Source of the DNA: Fretibacter rubidus
Lineage (GTDB): Bacteria; Pseudomonadota; Alphaproteobacteria; Caulobacterales; Maricaulaceae
Assembly: GCF_041429785.1 (NCBI RefSeq)
Contig: NZ_CP163423.1
Coordinates: 1,240,001 to 1,304,000, forward strand
DNA length: 64,000 nt
Reading direction: 5' to 3'
Position 1 is the first letter of the stretch. Each line of letters begins with the position of its first letter. Positions 9,214 to 37,480 of this stretch are shown here, piece after piece. The notes below the pieces were generated by a model, which saw only the letters and a list, made by a program, of their open reading frames with translations, was not told the DNA's origin and made no database searches. Made by a program: the position numbers and the translations under genes.

Positions 9214-10545
9214 ATGAACGCGCAAACGCCCCATATGAAAGCCGACATTCCGCCGCAAATGATTGGCGCGCAAAATGCGCCCTTTGGCAAAGTCGAGCGG
9301 ATGATTTCGCGCAGATATTTAGGCGCGAAGAAAAAAGACGGCGGCGTTGGCCTCATCGCGGCGTTGTCCTTTATCTGTATTATGCTGGCTGTGGCGGCGA
9401 TGATTATCATCATGTCGATTATGAACGGCTTTCGCGGTGAAATGATCCGCCTGACCATTGGGTCTGAAGGCCATATGTATGTCGCCTCTTCATCCCCGCA
9501 GCCCACCCCCGATAGCGTTGCGCAGCTAGAACGTCGTGTGGCGACTGTGGAGGGTATCGAAAAAGTGTTTGAAATGACGCAAGCCAATACCATGGTGCAA
9601 ACGAGTAGTGGTGTCACAGGCGTGCAAGTCATCGGCATTACCCCTGCGAGTATGAAGGATTTTGCCCTAATCTCTGACAATCTTGTCCTCGGCTCTCTTG
9701 ATGGTTTCGGGGAGGGACGCGGCCAAGACAACCAAGTTGCAATGGGTAGCGGCGTCGCGCGGCAATTAAACGTCACAGCCGGCGATACAGTCGTGGTCTA
9801 TAGCCCCCGTGTCCGCGCGAGCCCCATGGGGTCGACCCCTATTCGCAAGACGTTCACTGTGGGGGCTATTTATGAAATTGGTCTGCTGCAAGCTGATACG
9901 CTTTATATGTATATGGGGCTAGAACAGGCGCAGCTTTTGTTTAACGACGGAAAGACGGACGGGACGCTGCAAATCCGTTTGGACAACCCTGACGAGATTG
10001 ATGCCATGGTGCAAAAGGTTGCTAATGCGGCGGGTGAGCCATTGTTTATTGAGACATGGCGTGACCGCAACCAAAGCACAGCAACAGCGCTTCGGACCGA
10101 GCAAATCGTGATGCGTATGATCTTCATGATCGTCGTCATAATTGCGACGTTTCCTGTGCTGTCGGCGATGATTATGCTTGTGAAGAACAAATCGCGCGAT
10201 ATCGCCGTGCTGCGCACGATTGGCGCGACACAGGCGGGGATATTACGGATATTTTTAATGTCAGGTGCCGCAATTGGTGTGTTGGGAACACTCGCGGGTC
10301 TTATCTTTGGTATTCTATTTTGCCTGAATATTGAACCGATACAAAAGGCAATTGAATTTGTCTCTGGCGCGCCTTTATTTCCTGCCGATGTCTACGGCTT
10401 GTCGGGGATTATCCCTGTTAAAATCGTCTGGACAGAGGTACTAGGCGTGGCGTTTTGGGGATTTCTAATCACGACACTCGCCACATATTTACCCGCGCGC
10501 AATGCCTCCAAAATCGACCCTGTGGACGCGCTGAGGTATGAGTAG
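9214..10545 (+). CDS. lolC: Lipoprotein-releasing ABC transporter permease LolC/LolE
   Basis: A 443-residue inner-membrane permease that, with LolD, releases mature lipoproteins to LolA for transport to the outer membrane. Four membrane helices are visible: one near residues 45-70 after an ISRRYLG motif, then three in the C-terminal third, with a large periplasmic domain between. The FtsX-like KNKSRDIAVLRTIGAT motif is typical. Only one LolC/E-type gene is here, as is common in alphaproteobacteria. The extended N-terminus makes the exact start uncertain. It overlaps lolD by 8 bases. Confidence 0.95.
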   Translation: MNAQTPHMKADIPPQMIGAQNAPFGKVERMISRRYLGAKKKDGGVGLIAALSFICIMLAVAAMIIIMSIMNGFRGEMIRLTIGSEGHMYVASSSPQPTPDSVAQLERRVATVEGIEKVFEMTQANTMVQTSSGVTGVQVIGITPASMKDFALISDNLVLGSLDGFGEGRGQDNQVAMGSGVARQLNVTAGDTVVVYSPRVRASPMGSTPIRKTFTVGAIYEIGLLQADTLYMYMGLEQAQLLFNDGKTDGTLQIRLDNPDEIDAMVQKVANAAGEPLFIETWRDRNQSTATALRTEQIVMRMIFMIVVIIATFPVLSAMIMLVKNKSRDIAVLRTIGATQAGILRIFLMSGAAIGVLGTLAGLIFGILFCLNIEPIQKAIEFVSGAPLFPADVYGLSGIIPVKIVWTEVLGVAFWGFLITTLATYLPARNASKIDPVDALRYE

Positions 10546-11293
10546 AACGATGAATAATCAATTCGACCATATGCCAGAGGCCAAACGCCCTATCCTGTCT
10601 GTGCGAAATTTGCACCGTCATTACAAATCAGGCGAGGGAACGCTGACCGTGCTGAACGGTGCGGATATCGATATTTATCCCGGCGAAATGGTCGGCCTCG
10701 TCGGGCCGTCTGGCTCTGGCAAGTCGACACTCTTGCATGCAGCGGGACTGCTCGAGCAACCTGACGCGGGCAAGGTTTATATCAATGGGCGAGAGTGCTT
10801 GAAGCTAAATGACGCGACCCGCACATCAATCCGCCGTCAAACTATTGGCATGGTCTATCAATTTCATCACCTTCTCAAAGAATTCACAGCGCTAGATAAT
10901 GTCGCCATACCGCAGATGATTGCGGGTAAGAGCCAAACCAAGGCGCGGGCTGAGGCAGACCGTCTTTTGTCTCTTATGGGGCTCGCTGAACGGCTTGATC
11001 ATACGCCGTCCCAAATGTCGGGTGGGGAACAGCAACGCGTTGCCATTGCACGGGCCATTGCCAATAAACCGCAGCTTCTTTTGGCTGATGAACCCACGGG
11101 TAACCTTGACCCCGCGACCTCGACGCGCGTGTTCCAAAGCTTGCTAGATCTAACGCGGCGCGAAGGTGTGTCTGCGCTGGTGGCCACGCATAACATGGAA
11201 CTGACCCGCTTTATGGACCGCGTGCTGACCGTGCGAAATGGCCAAGTGGTGGCGGTTGCGAAAAATGCCATTCAAGGCGGGATTGTCGTCTAG
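10538..11293 (+). CDS. lolD: Lipoprotein-releasing ABC transporter ATPase LolD
   Basis: A 251-residue ATP-binding cassette protein that powers LolC. Walker A GPSGSGKS is at residues 56-63, the signature SGGEQQR at 161-167 and Walker B LLLADE at 180-185, followed by a switch histidine in VATHN. The start overlaps the end of lolC by 8 bases; a second ATG at 10550 is also possible. The stop overlaps the stop of the oppositely oriented permease gene by 4 bases. Confidence 0.96.
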
Positions 11294-12594
11294 CGACCAA
11301 GCCGTTTTGAGAGCCAGTAAAACACCCCGCCCAGCGCAATCAGCCCCGCCGCAAAGCCCGCTTGTAACGGCTTTTCCATCACCACAAAGACCAATGTGAA
11401 AACGGTCAGCGCGATGTAAATTAGCGGCGTGACCGGGTAGCCCCACGTGCGGTAGGGGCGCGGTAGATCGGGTTCGCGGTAACGCAACACGAATACGCCT
11501 ACGACCGCCAAGAGGCTATTTAAGGCGAGCATAGCCCCTGCAAAAATCACGATAAATTCGAAGCTGCTGGTCAGGATGAAAATCAGCGTGACAGCAGATT
11601 GGAAATAAATCGCATTGCGCGGCACACCTGCACCGTTCACGCGTCCCAAAAAGCCTAGCGCGGGGAAGTCTTCGCCGACACCTTGCAAAGCGCGCGGCCC
11701 CGCGAGCACCATGGCGCTGACCGTGGATACGAGTAACAGCGCCAGCGCCATCCCTGTTACCCGCGCTGCTGTATCGCCAAAGATATAGGTGGCCGCGATA
11801 TAACCGATTTCTTCGCGGCCCGTCATCGCATCAATAGGGGCAACGCGTAAAAACACATAATTCAGCGCAACATAAAGCGCCATGACAATGGCTGTGCCGA
11901 CCAGCAAGACACGCGGTAGGTCGCGCTGCGGGTTTTTCATCTCGCCGCTGATATAGGTTGCGGCGTTCCATCCCGTATAGGCATAGGACACGTAAATAAG
12001 GGCGACGGCGTATGAACCGCTGGTCATGGCATCAAAACCGCTGGCCGAAGGGGCAAAGGATATGGGTTGAGCGTCTGCCACGAGCAAAAGTCCCGCTAGG
12101 CAAAAAGCCACAATCATAATGACTTTGATGAGAGTGAAGCTTGACTGAAACGCGCCGCTGCTCCCCCGATTACGACCATGAATTAGCGTCGCAATGATAA
12201 CAACGCTTGCCGCTAACCCTTTGGTGACCCACGGCCCGTAATCACCGGGCAGGGCAGCCGTGGCATAGGTGCCAAACACAATGGCGGAAGCTGCTATGGG
12301 GGCCGCAAAACCGATAACAGCGGAAATCCAGCCGGATATGAACCCCGCCGCAGGATGATAGATGCGGCCCAGAAAGTTATACTCACCGCCAGATCGGGGC
12401 AGGGCTGCGCCAAGCTCGCCGTAGGACGCCGCCCCGCAGAGCGCCGCGACACCGCCCAGCACCCATAACATCAGCAGCGCAAAGCCGTCTTGTATGTCCA
12501 AAAGCTGGAACCCAAGGCTCGTAAACACGCCCGTGCCGACCATATTGGCAATGATAATGGCGGTCGCCGTGCGCGGTTTATAATGGTCTGACAT
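11290..12594 (-). CDS. APC superfamily amino-acid permease
   Basis: A 434-residue polytopic transporter with about 12 helices. The start ATARIAT-like segment TATAIIIANMVGTGVFTSLG, with a glycine-rich unwound first helix, is typical of the amino acid-polyamine-organocation superfamily (LAT/basic amino acid branch). The substrate cannot be read from sequence. I chose ATG at 12594 because AGGGGA lies just upstream; the open frame extends further but contains no family sequence. It lies on the minus strand between lolD and dnaE, overlapping the lolD stop by 4 bases, and interrupts an otherwise conserved block. Confidence 0.88.
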   Translation of the reverse strand: MSDHYKPRTATAIIIANMVGTGVFTSLGFQLLDIQDGFALLMLWVLGGVAALCGAASYGELGAALPRSGGEYNFLGRIYHPAAGFISGWISAVIGFAAPIAASAIVFGTYATAALPGDYGPWVTKGLAASVVIIATLIHGRNRGSSGAFQSSFTLIKVIMIVAFCLAGLLLVADAQPISFAPSASGFDAMTSGSYAVALIYVSYAYTGWNAATYISGEMKNPQRDLPRVLLVGTAIVMALYVALNYVFLRVAPIDAMTGREEIGYIAATYIFGDTAARVTGMALALLLVSTVSAMVLAGPRALQGVGEDFPALGFLGRVNGAGVPRNAIYFQSAVTLIFILTSSFEFIVIFAGAMLALNSLLAVVGVFVLRYREPDLPRPYRTWGYPVTPLIYIALTVFTLVFVVMEKPLQAGFAAGLIALGGVFYWLSKRLGR

Positions 12595-12669: not shown

Positions 12670-12713
12670 TTGACTTATCTGTGGGCGGTTATGTATAAGA
12701 ACAAAACAAGAAC
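12670..12713 (+). promoter_or_regulatory. LexA-controlled promoter (SOS box) for the small ORF and dnaE
   Basis: TTGACT at 12670-12675, a 17-base spacer, and GTATAA at 12693-12698 form a sigma70-type promoter. Directly after it, at 12699-12713, is GAAC-AAAACAA-GAAC, a perfect match to the alphaproteobacterial SOS box (GTTC-N7-GTTC read on the other strand). LexA bound there would block the start site. The downstream genes are the 30-codon ORF at 12751 and dnaE. Confidence 0.8.
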
Positions 12714-12750
12714 ATATATTGTGTTCACACAAACCAGTTGGGGATAAGCC

Positions 12751-12843
12751 ATGAAGCAAGTTGTATCAGACCTAAGCGCCGCTATTGTGATGGCAGGATT
12801 CGTCACAATGATGACTATGTGGATGATGGTGCTATCCGCCTAA
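12751..12843 (+). CDS. SidA-like SOS-induced small membrane protein (30 aa)
   Basis: A 30-codon ORF with a GGGGAT ribosome binding site 7 bases before its ATG. The product has a short polar start (MKQVVSDLS) and then one hydrophobic helix (about residues 9-29) rich in methionine (7 Met in total) with one Trp and no charged residue. It sits under a promoter with a perfect SOS box and 22 bases before dnaE. I recall that Caulobacter SidA is a 29-residue inner-membrane peptide, induced by DNA damage through LexA, that blocks division through FtsW/FtsN, and that it is encoded next to dnaE. Size, topology, regulation and neighbour all fit; sequence similarity was not tested. Confidence 0.68.
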   Translation: MKQVVSDLSAAIVMAGFVTMMTMWMMVLSA

Positions 12844-12865
12844 TAGACACCAAAGGAGGGGACAT

Positions 12866-15800
12866 ATGGCCGCCAAGCCCGTTCAATTTGTTCACCTCCG
12901 CGCACGTACGCCTTACTCTATTCTAGAGGGCGCAACAAAAATTGGCGATATGGCCAAGCGGGCCAAAGAATACCGTATGCCCGCCATTGCCATGACCGAC
13001 ACCCATAATATGTGTGCAGCGCTGGAATTTTCCGGCACAATGGTCAGCAACGGCTTGCAGCCTATTATTGGCGTTACGCTGTCAGTTGATTTAGAACTAG
13101 ATGACCAACCTGGGCAGCTTCGCCGCGATCCTGACGGTATGCTGGTCTTATTGGCGCAAGATGATCTCGGCTATGAAAACTTGATGGAGTTATCCTCCGC
13201 CAGCTATCTTGATATTTCGCCGACAGACCTACCGCATATCAAAGCGGCGCGCATGAACGGCAATACAGACGGCGTGATTGCTTTGACGGGCGGCCCTGAC
13301 GGGGCGCTGAACCGCCTGATATGCAAAGGACAACTGGCAGAGGCGGAGGCGTGGCTTGATAAGCTGGCAGCCTTATTCCCGAACCGCTTATATATAGAGT
13401 TACAACGCCACGGCCTCGCCCATGAAATAGAAGCCGAAAAAGTTCTGATTGATTGGGCTTATGCCAAGGATTTGCCGCTGGTTGCGACGAATGAGCCCTA
13501 TTTCCTCGACCCTGATATGCACGAAGCCCATGACGCACTTTTGGCGATATCAGAGGGCAGTTACCTGTTGGAGAAAGACCGCCGTAAGGTGTCTAATCAG
13601 CATTATTTCAAAACATCAGAGCAAATGGCTGAGGTGTTTAAAGACATTCCCGAAGCCATTGAAAACACTGTGGATATTGCGCGGCGTTGTGCGGTTCGTT
13701 CTGTGGCGCGGGATCCTATTTTGCCCAATTTTGGCGACGGCAGCTTATCAGAAGGTGACATCCTGGCTCAGCAAGCCCGTGACGGTCTGCGCGAACGCCT
13801 AGACGCTGTGCCGCCCGCCGATGATGAACAAGCCTATTTTGATAGGCTGGATTTCGAACTCGACGTTATTCGTCAAATGGGCTTTCCGGGTTACTTTCTT
13901 ATCGTTTCCGATTTTATCAAATGGGCCAAAAATGAGGGGATTCCTGTGGGGCCGGGCCGGGGGTCTGGTGCGGGTTCTGTTGTCGCGTGGGCGCTTACGA
14001 TTACGGATTTGGACCCGTTGCGTTACGGTCTGCTGTTTGAGCGCTTCCTGAACCCCGAGCGGGTGTCCATGCCCGATTTCGATATCGATTTCTGCCAAGA
14101 ACGGCGCGGCGAAGTCATTAAATATGTGCAGCAAAAATACGGTACCGCCCAAGTCGCGCATATTATCACTTTCGGGACGCTGCAAGCGCGCGCCGTGGTG
14201 CGTGATGTTGGCCGTGTTATGCAAATGCCGCTCGGCCAAGTCGACAGGCTTGCCAAGCTTGTCCCGTCAAATCCCGCTAGTCCCGTAACGTTAGGCGAAG
14301 CGATTACGATGGAGAAAGGCCTGCGTGAGGCGCGCGATTCTGAACCTGCCGTGCGTAAACTCCTGGATGTCGCGCTAAAGCTGGAGGGGTTATACCGCAA
14401 TGCCTCGACCCATGCGGCGGGTGTCGTGATTGGTGACCGTCCCTTGACCAAGCTTGTCCCGCTCTATCTTGACCCGCGCTCTGAAATTCCCGCGACGCAA
14501 TTCACAATGAAATATGCGGAAAAAGCCGGGCTAGTGAAATTTGACTTTTTGGGCCTTAAAACCCTGACTGTGATTGATCGGGCGCTGAAATATCTCGTGC
14601 AGCAGGGGCGCCCCATCGACCTTGACGCCATTTCAACGGACACGCCAGACGCTTACACCAATCTTGCGCTGGGGCTGTCTGCGGGCGTGTTTCAGCTTGA
14701 GAGCTCGGGCATGCGCGATGTGCTGCGTAAAATGGCACCCGACACGATTGAGGAATTAACCGCCCTTATCTCGCTATATCGTCCAGGGCCGATGAAAAAC
14801 ATCGACACTTATATTGACCGTAAATATGGCCGCGTAAAAATTGAATATCCGCACCCTAGCTTGGAAGATATACTGAAAGAAACCTACGGCATTATTATCT
14901 ATCAAGAACAGGTGATGCAAATCGCGCAGGTCTTGTCAGGGTATTCACTCGGCGAGGCGGATATGCTCCGCCGTGCCATGGGTAAAAAAGACCAAGCGGA
15001 AATGAACCGCCAAAAATCACGCTTTGTTGACGGTGCGGTCAAACGCAATGTTGATGCAAAACTCGCGTCTGATATCTTCGAGTTGGTCAATGAATTCGCG
15101 GGCTATGGTTTTAACAAATCACACGCCGCCGCCTATGCGATGATATCGTTTCGCACGGCCTATTTAAAAGCCGTTTATCCCACAGAATTTATTGCCGCGA
15201 CGATGAGCCTTGATATCGCTAATGTCGAAAAACTGGCGCAGTTTTATCAAGAGGGTAAACGGCTCGATTTGACCATATTGCCGCCTTGCGTGAACCGCTC
15301 TGGCGCAGATTTTGAAGTCACCGACAATGCTGTGCTCTACGCTTTGGGGGCTTTGAAAAACGTCGGTGTCGAAGCGATGCGCCATGTGGTGGCTGTTCGC
15401 GAAGACGGCGGACCGTTTAAAGATTTGTTCGATTTTGCCCGTCGCGTGGATAGCCGTATTGTCAATAAACGCGCGATTGAAAATCTCGCGCGCGGCGGGG
15501 CGTTTGATTGCCTTGAACCTAACCGGGCCAAAACGCTGGCGTCTGCGGGAATTTTGCAATCAATCGGCTCTCGCGCTGCCGAAGAACGCCAATCCGCCCA
15601 AGTGGGCCTATTTGGTGACGCCGTGGACGCAATGGCTGAGCCGGATTTGAAGGACGCTGCGCCTTGGGGCAATATCGAGCAACTCGACCATGAATTAGGG
15701 GCCGTTGGTTTTTACCTCGGCGGCCACCCGCTAGAGACTTATGCCAATACCACTGATGTGAAGCAGTCTATTCCTGCCATTGAGATCGAAGAACGGTTCA

Positions 15801-16321
15801 CACGCTCTGGACAAGCTGTGAAATTGGCGGGCGTTGTCCGTAAACGCCAAGAACGCATGAGCAAGCGCGGCAAGCGGTTTGCTTATGTCGGAATTTCAGA
15901 TCCCACAGGTGATTTTGAAATCTTTGTCGGCGAGGGCTTATTGGCCGTATCGCGTGAAATTCTAACGGCCGGGGCGGTGGTCGTCGTAAAAGCGAAGCTT
16001 GAGCAGCGAGACGGCGATATTAAAATCTTCGCGGACGAGATTCGCTCGCTGGATACAACAGAAACAGCTCCTAAAATCGCGGGTCTTAAAATCCGTCTGC
16101 GCTCGGCGACGATAGAAAGCTTAGACGCGCTTGAAAAAGCGCTCGAATCATTGCGCGAAGCGCCGTCGGAAAACTCGGGTTATATAGAGATTGTGGCCCC
16201 GCTTGACGGTGCACGCGAAGGACAATGGCGTTTGCCCAATCGTTTTGGTATCGATCCGTCCATTCAGGCGGCCCTCAAAGCATCGAAAATGATTGAAATG
16301 ATCGAAGAAATCGCCGCCTAG
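12866..16321 (+). CDS. dnaE: DNA polymerase III subunit alpha
   Basis: An 1151-residue replicative polymerase (DnaE1). The N-terminal PHP domain begins at once (VHLRARTPYSILEGA), the catalytic PDFDIDF motif places aspartates at about residues 404 and 406, and there is a helix-hairpin-helix region and a C-terminal OB fold (KLAGVVRKR, about residue 985 on). Length and N-terminus fit the replicative enzyme and not DnaE2/ImuC. An AGGAGG ribosome binding site precedes ATG 12866. With no terminator seen between the small SOS ORF and dnaE, at least part of its transcription may be LexA-controlled. Confidence 0.97.
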   Translation: MAAKPVQFVHLRARTPYSILEGATKIGDMAKRAKEYRMPAIAMTDTHNMCAALEFSGTMVSNGLQPIIGVTLSVDLELDDQPGQLRRDPDGMLVLLAQDDLGYENLMELSSASYLDISPTDLPHIKAARMNGNTDGVIALTGGPDGALNRLICKGQLAEAEAWLDKLAALFPNRLYIELQRHGLAHEIEAEKVLIDWAYAKDLPLVATNEPYFLDPDMHEAHDALLAISEGSYLLEKDRRKVSNQHYFKTSEQMAEVFKDIPEAIENTVDIARRCAVRSVARDPILPNFGDGSLSEGDILAQQARDGLRERLDAVPPADDEQAYFDRLDFELDVIRQMGFPGYFLIVSDFIKWAKNEGIPVGPGRGSGAGSVVAWALTITDLDPLRYGLLFERFLNPERVSMPDFDIDFCQERRGEVIKYVQQKYGTAQVAHIITFGTLQARAVVRDVGRVMQMPLGQVDRLAKLVPSNPASPVTLGEAITMEKGLREARDSEPAVRKLLDVALKLEGLYRNASTHAAGVVIGDRPLTKLVPLYLDPRSEIPATQFTMKYAEKAGLVKFDFLGLKTLTVIDRALKYLVQQGRPIDLDAISTDTPDAYTNLALGLSAGVFQLESSGMRDVLRKMAPDTIEELTALISLYRPGPMKNIDTYIDRKYGRVKIEYPHPSLEDILKETYGIIIYQEQVMQIAQVLSGYSLGEADMLRRAMGKKDQAEMNRQKSRFVDGAVKRNVDAKLASDIFELVNEFAGYGFNKSHAAAYAMISFRTAYLKAVYPTEFIAATMSLDIANVEKLAQFYQEGKRLDLTILPPCVNRSGADFEVTDNAVLYALGALKNVGVEAMRHVVAVREDGGPFKDLFDFARRVDSRIVNKRAIENLARGGAFDCLEPNRAKTLASAGILQSIGSRAAEERQSAQVGLFGDAVDAMAEPDLKDAAPWGNIEQLDHELGAVGFYLGGHPLETYANTTDVKQSIPAIEIEERFTRSGQAVKLAGVVRKRQERMSKRGKRFAYVGISDPTGDFEIFVGEGLLAVSREILTAGAVVVVKAKLEQRDGDIKIFADEIRSLDTTETAPKIAGLKIRLRSATIESLDALEKALESLREAPSENSGYIEIVAPLDGAREGQWRLPNRFGIDPSIQAALKASKMIEMIEEIAA

Positions 16322-36724: not shown

Positions 36725-37372
36725 CTAGTGGTATTTACGCACCAAACCGACCAAAACGCCTTGAACTTCAACCCGATCAGGGCCGAATGTGCGCGTCGGA
36801 AAATCAGGGTTTTCCGCAATTAATTCAATGCTCTGTCCCGATTTGCGCAAGGTCTTGAGGGTTGCTTCCTCGCCGTCGACGAGGGCCACAACAATTTGAC
36901 CATTACGCGCTGTATCAGCTTTGCGCACCACGACGATATCACCGTCAAGAATGCCAACGCCGGTCATCGACTCGCCTTCAATCTCTAGCGCAAAGTGATC
37001 ACCGCGACCCATCATGTTGGGCGGAACAGCGATCATATTATAGCTATCTTCTAGCGCTGCGATGGGATTACCCGCTGCGATTTTACCGACAAAGGGTATT
37101 TCGGTATCATTGGCGGCGTCCATCATCGCGACAGGGGCTGACGTTGCAGGGCGCGCATCTTCGGGAACTTTAAGGACCTCTAGCGCACGCGCTTTATTGG
37201 GGAGGCGGCGGATAAAGCCGCGTTCTTCTAAGGCTGTAATTAAACGGTGAATACCGGATTTAGAGGCCAGACCCAAAGCATCTTTCATTTCGTCATAACT
37301 CGGCGGGACACCTGTCGCGCGGATTTTCTTGTCGATGAGTAAAAGAAGGTCTTTTTGCTTTTGCGTTAACAT
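36725..37372 (-). CDS. lexA: LexA repressor
   Basis: A 215-residue SOS master repressor. The N-terminal winged helix covers about residues 1-65 ([23 protein letters not shown]), the self-cleavage site is Ala100-Gly101 in KIAAGNP, and the catalytic pair is Ser135 (EGESMTG) and Lys173 (EATLKTL). Its own promoter holds a perfect SOS box, so it is autoregulated. The second target in the window is the small ORF before dnaE. Confidence 0.98.
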
Positions 37373-37452: not shown

Positions 37453-37480
37453 GTTCTAGCATTGTTCACGCGACTGTCAA
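37453..37480 (-). promoter_or_regulatory. lexA promoter with SOS box
   Basis: On the minus strand TTGACA (37475-37480), a 16-base spacer and TAGAAC (37453-37458) form the promoter. GTTC-TAGCATT-GTTC at 37453-37467 (plus-strand reading) is a perfect alphaproteobacterial SOS box and covers the -10 and part of the spacer. A further inverted repeat, GAACAAAA (37428-37435) with TTTTGTTC (37449-37456), shares one half-site. Confidence 0.82.

Follow-up and report, generated by a model that had tools for sequence, protein, structure and literature searches.

The 30-residue open reading frame (ORF) located directly upstream of dnaE in the window (the whole stretch of 64,000 nucleotides that was analysed) is most probably a divergent ortholog of sidA, through which LexA cleavage would induce a helix of the inner membrane that would keep FtsW/I/N from becoming active. 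To our knowledge, the way in which alphaproteobacteria beyond Caulobacter halt division after DNA damage is largely unknown. SidA itself is already known, and in Caulobacter it is an SOS-induced product of 29 amino acids (aa) that acts on FtsW/FtsN (PMC4211646). What is new here is the existence of divergent members in the family of the window, together with a wider set of candidates; our literature search found neither SidA outside Caulobacter nor a tie of SidA to dnaE, an absence that must not be taken as proof. The range of SidA-like genes is far wider than annotation shows, the NCBI model seeing only Caulobacteraceae in our sample. Ready candidates in many families are thus available, with a locus rule for finding others (to search the region ahead of dnaE for an ORF that follows a LexA box), and the diverged natural sequences indicate which residues matter.

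Table 1. Features of the sidA-like locus and of lexA, in window positions
Feature	Positions	Strand	Basis
Promoter TTGACT-N17-GTATAA (TTGACT 12670-12675, GTATAA 12693-12698)	12670-12698	+	Direct reading
LexA (SOS) box GAACAAAACAAGAAC, GAAC-N7-GAAC	12699-12713	+	Direct reading and regulon motif
Ribosome-binding site GGGGAT	12740-12745	+	Direct reading
sidA-like ORF, 30 aa MKQVVSDLSAAIVMAGFVTMMTMWMMVLSA, ATG to TAA	12751-12843	+	Single membrane helix
Ribosome-binding site of dnaE AAAGGAGGGG	12852-12861	+	Ahead of the dnaE start
dnaE (DNA polymerase III alpha)	12866-16321	+	Pfam DNA_pol3_alpha, 6.3e-100
lexA, presumed repressor of the sidA-like promoter	36728-37372	-	TIGR00498 (lexA), E 6e-57, above cut-off
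Autoregulatory LexA box GAACAATGCTAGAAC preceding lexA	37453-37467	-	Motif search

The organization of the locus is provided in Table 1. A first-pass annotation of this DNA had described a TTGACT-N17-GTATAA promoter, a perfect SOS box, a ribosome-binding site and an ORF of 30 codons followed by dnaE, and every one of these elements was found in its place. Of 14 close relatives, 13 have a TTGAC no farther than 45 nt ahead of the box; a scan of the window for consensus sigma-70 promoters did not return the TTGACT/GTATAA pair. GGGGATAA or a near variant of it recurs 5' of the start codon in several relatives, as a ribosome-binding site. The ORF is separated from dnaE by 22 nt. Regarding the surroundings, lexA and its own LexA box are encoded in the same window as the sidA-like ORF. 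In many relatives lolD is found directly upstream of the sidA-dnaE pair; the window has an APC-like permease gene (10538-12594, minus strand) between them, divergent from the sidA promoter.

Since the box directly follows the −10 element on its 3' side, a repressor sitting on it would mask the start site and block transcription. It must be noted that the GAAC-N7-GAAC motif is not improbable by number: it occurs twice in the window, 1.67 occurrences being expected, and 47 times in the genome, less often than a reversed control motif. Box counts, being at chance level in both, were therefore dropped as evidence, and the box is meaningful because of its position, its conservation and its regulon context. 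In this respect, within the subset of the 47 occurrences that was inspected, the same motif precedes lexA, recA, uvrA/ssb (divergent), ruvC and an imuA-like gene, as well as dinB/two DNA polymerase IV-like genes and a comM-like ATPase, the gene identities having been assigned with NCBIfam. By this regulon, the motif ahead of the ORF is, as far as sequence can tell, a LexA box in this genome, and the promoter, with a perfect box, is of the LexA-controlled kind expected of sidA. A perfect box was present at 24 of the 33 peptide-bearing loci in the family of the window, leaving about a quarter of them without one. This genome also contains further AT-rich boxes of the LexA type (L158, L159, L172), which precede a small ORF that faces a gene of dipeptidase type, a GIY-YIG-like ORF and a comM-like ATPase. 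Instead of a single box, the sidA promoter of C. vibrioides (L110, about 990-1060) has several clustered LexA half-sites.

The identity of the Caulobacter gene was fixed by means of published locus tags and the NCBIfam model for SidA (NF033228). sidA is CCNA_02004 (PMC10769358), the nucleoside hydrolase gene is CCNA_02005 (PMC3667746) and dnaE is CC1926 (PMC1839093). Given that the published tags of lexA (CC1902/CCNA_01979) and recN (CC1983/CCNA_02062) bracket the numbering, dnaE must be one of CCNA_02003-02005, and with the two other genes already placed, the gene that precedes dnaE in Caulobacter is sidA. In agreement with this, the order in C. vibrioides DSM 9893 is inosine-uridine nucleoside hydrolase (PF01156, 5.7e-75), box, ORF of 29 aa and dnaE, and the product of this ORF matched NF033228 with 72.4 bits (E 2e-20; cut-off, 35 bits). 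The window peptide lies directly upstream of dnaE as in C. vibrioides, and orthology is therefore positional as well as by profile: comparison of the profile of the window family with that of Caulobacteraceae SidA (hhalign) gave a probability of 95.2 and an E-value of 2.9e-8 over 22 ungapped columns. This score alone would be weak, since hydrophobic helices of 30 residues can resemble each other by chance, and the shared position is needed beside it. The proposal of a SidA-type gene is thus supported by locus and profile, at the level of sequence; its assignment to a different lineage holds for the family, which is not that of Caulobacter, and does not hold for the order, which is the same.

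NF033228 did not match the window peptide, its genome or any member of the window family, and among the 61 genomes sampled only three, all of them Caulobacteraceae, passed its 35-bit cut-off. The peptide, which fails that cut-off, was consequently filed under the wider SidA family and not under this model. Scans of the window peptide with NCBIfam, Pfam and PHROG returned no matches either, and the suggestion that the gene is too short for normal annotation is borne out by the failure of the NCBIfam SidA model to find anything in the genome. Only a single copy of the sidA-like ORF was found there. In Caulobacter sp. RI_161 (L279), a second SidA-like stretch, MTRLIRETLAFAAAATFVWAVCVGALVVGDLFRSLPA, without LexA box, lies away from dnaE and is a possible paralog.

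The most hydrophobic stretch of the peptide comprises residues 10-28 (best 19-residue hydropathy, 1.99), and AlphaFold2 predicted one helix spanning residues 2-29 (pLDDT 95.9). With its 30 aa and this predicted helix, it resembles SidA in size (about 29 residues) and in having a single membrane helix. The helix had been called uncharged, which is correct for residues 8-30 and incorrect for K2 and D7. No residue of the family is better conserved than the latter, position 7 being D or E in 62 of 64 sequences. Conserved residues 7, 10/11, 14, 17 and 24 could lie along the same side of the helix, which would make a plausible contact surface. The window peptide has in common with SidA the location upstream of dnaE, the LexA box, the length, the single helix, the acidic position 7, the G16-F17-V18 core and an ungapped alignment over 22 columns. 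It differs from Caulobacter SidA in having Trp at position 24 rather than 19, in the second half of the helix, in the C-terminus, in a shorter gap to dnaE and in being missed by NF033228; intermediate sequences bear both tryptophans, 19 and 24.

Other division inhibitors are less close. DidA of Caulobacter (71 aa, SOS-independent, acting on FtsN; PMC4211646) is likewise small and single-helix, but it is larger than the window peptide, is not LexA-controlled and is located at a different locus. YneA, SosA and ChiZ of Gram-positives and mycobacteria (PMC13396833) are damage-induced membrane helices that halt late division, a comparison by description and not by sequence which refers only to how they work; unlike the window peptide, they are longer and have extracellular parts. 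Their modelled contacts are on TM7 of FtsW, and the modelling of SidA puts it against the other side of that helix. SulA (PF03846) is also an SOS-induced division inhibitor, but a soluble one directed to FtsZ, and a search of the genome for PF03846 gave no match. FtsW is encoded in this genome.

In undamaged cells, LexA bound to its box would shut the promoter. Upon damage, RecA on single-stranded DNA would lead to the self-cleavage of LexA and hence to transcription of the sidA-like gene, whose 30-residue product would insert as a single helix into the inner membrane. Going by its orthology to SidA, this peptide would make contact with FtsW, perhaps with FtsN too, once the divisome is assembled, presumably at the septum, and would keep FtsW/I/N in an inactive state so that constriction would wait until repair is finished. 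An SOS-induced membrane peptide could instead act on something other than FtsW, for instance by lowering the membrane potential like DinQ or TisB of E. coli, and small SOS-induced single-helix peptides of the DinQ kind are indeed described (PMC3567139). We consider such an action unlikely for the window peptide, since both locus and profile make it an ortholog of SidA, and since the conserved acidic position 7 and the conserved Gly/Trp pattern suggest a specific protein contact.

The short distance to dnaE, and the fact that no terminator was predicted on the plus strand between the two genes, indicate that dnaE is probably cotranscribed, and so co-induced, with the sidA-like ORF. A LexA-controlled promoter that can read into dnaE would allow DNA damage to raise the replicative polymerase and to halt division at the same time. 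Our literature search found no paper testing co-induction of dnaE with sidA, and the reason for which the checkpoint is tied to the replicative polymerase gene is a question that these data raise. The same proximity, together with a linkage to dnaE kept across many families, would also fit a leader peptide or 5' leader that tunes dnaE, in which case the box would belong to dnaE and the ORF would do no more than regulate translation. This explanation is very improbable, considering that what is conserved is the amino-acid sequence and its membrane character, that the gap ranges from 7 to 140 nt among relatives of the window family and is larger elsewhere, that dnaE has its own strong ribosome-binding site, and that Caulobacter has sidA at this site, a gene acting through a protein that blocks division (PMC4211646).

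The coding signal of the ORF is specific to its frame. Among 11 relatives of the same family, dN/dS was 0.131 in frame and 0.88 and 2.09 in the shifted frames, and for the Caulobacteraceae counterpart it ranged between 0.18 and 0.23 in frame (70 sequences). Mean identity in the window family was 0.66 within the ORF vs. 0.28 in the following 30 nt, the second codon position being the most conserved. Judging from these patterns, the ORF is a gene under purifying selection. By direct reading upstream of dnaE, with no profile used, a single-helix ORF of 30-31 residues was found in 33 of the 37 genomes of the window's family, and comparable ORFs occupy this place in Caulobacteraceae and two further families of the order. 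Both the conservation upstream of dnaE and the coding signal that the first-pass annotation had proposed to look for are therefore present. That the ORF arose by chance, behind a box that is itself either real or fortuitous, would agree with the box count in the window, but has a negligible probability and can be taken as already refuted by the comparative data, that is, by the conservation, the frame-specific selection and the occurrence at the same place in tens of genera. In family f2 of the same order, neither box nor peptide was found upstream of dnaE in the sampled genomes (L055, L059-L063), an apparent loss of the sidA-like gene. Weak profile matches in G130, G160, G294 and G304, as well as those in family f2, were rejected, as the box-peptide-dnaE arrangement is absent.

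Outside the order, the region upstream of dnaE was read in 89 genomes of the class, representing 70 families. A perfect box was present in 20 genomes belonging to 11 of these families, and four permuted control motifs yielded no box upstream of dnaE in the same 89 genomes. A single-helix ORF followed the box in 19 of the 20 cases according to a script, and in the last one (L198) by eye, while such an ORF follows 12% of random positions. The SOS-boxed peptides measure 26-47 aa (L189-L217, L218, L237, L246, L273) and show a common [WFL]-x-[KQ]-D-x-x-A-[LG]-like start, often with a Trp in the second half; their profile matched that of the order with a probability of 96.4 and an E-value of 1.2e-9. 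Additionally, a search with the profile of the order's peptides retrieved two families, f7 and f13, with the box-peptide-dnaE arrangement, and a third, f20, in which lolC and lolD are followed by a box and peptide where the contig ends. Many families do not have the arrangement upstream of dnaE, and the distribution is therefore patchy. SidA may tentatively be regarded not as peculiar to Caulobacter but as an SOS division checkpoint that was ancestral in Alphaproteobacteria, remained beside a co-induced dnaE and was often lost or replaced, a possibility supported in part by the boxed peptides in 11 of the 70 families and by the profile match. In two genomes of f107 the script initially picked another frame, the conserved ORF being MSEWVKDTAALFVLGAVMWSGFALTAAAQAAG. 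Some of the peptides outside the order, those of f13, carry an N-terminal extension of about 15 residues.
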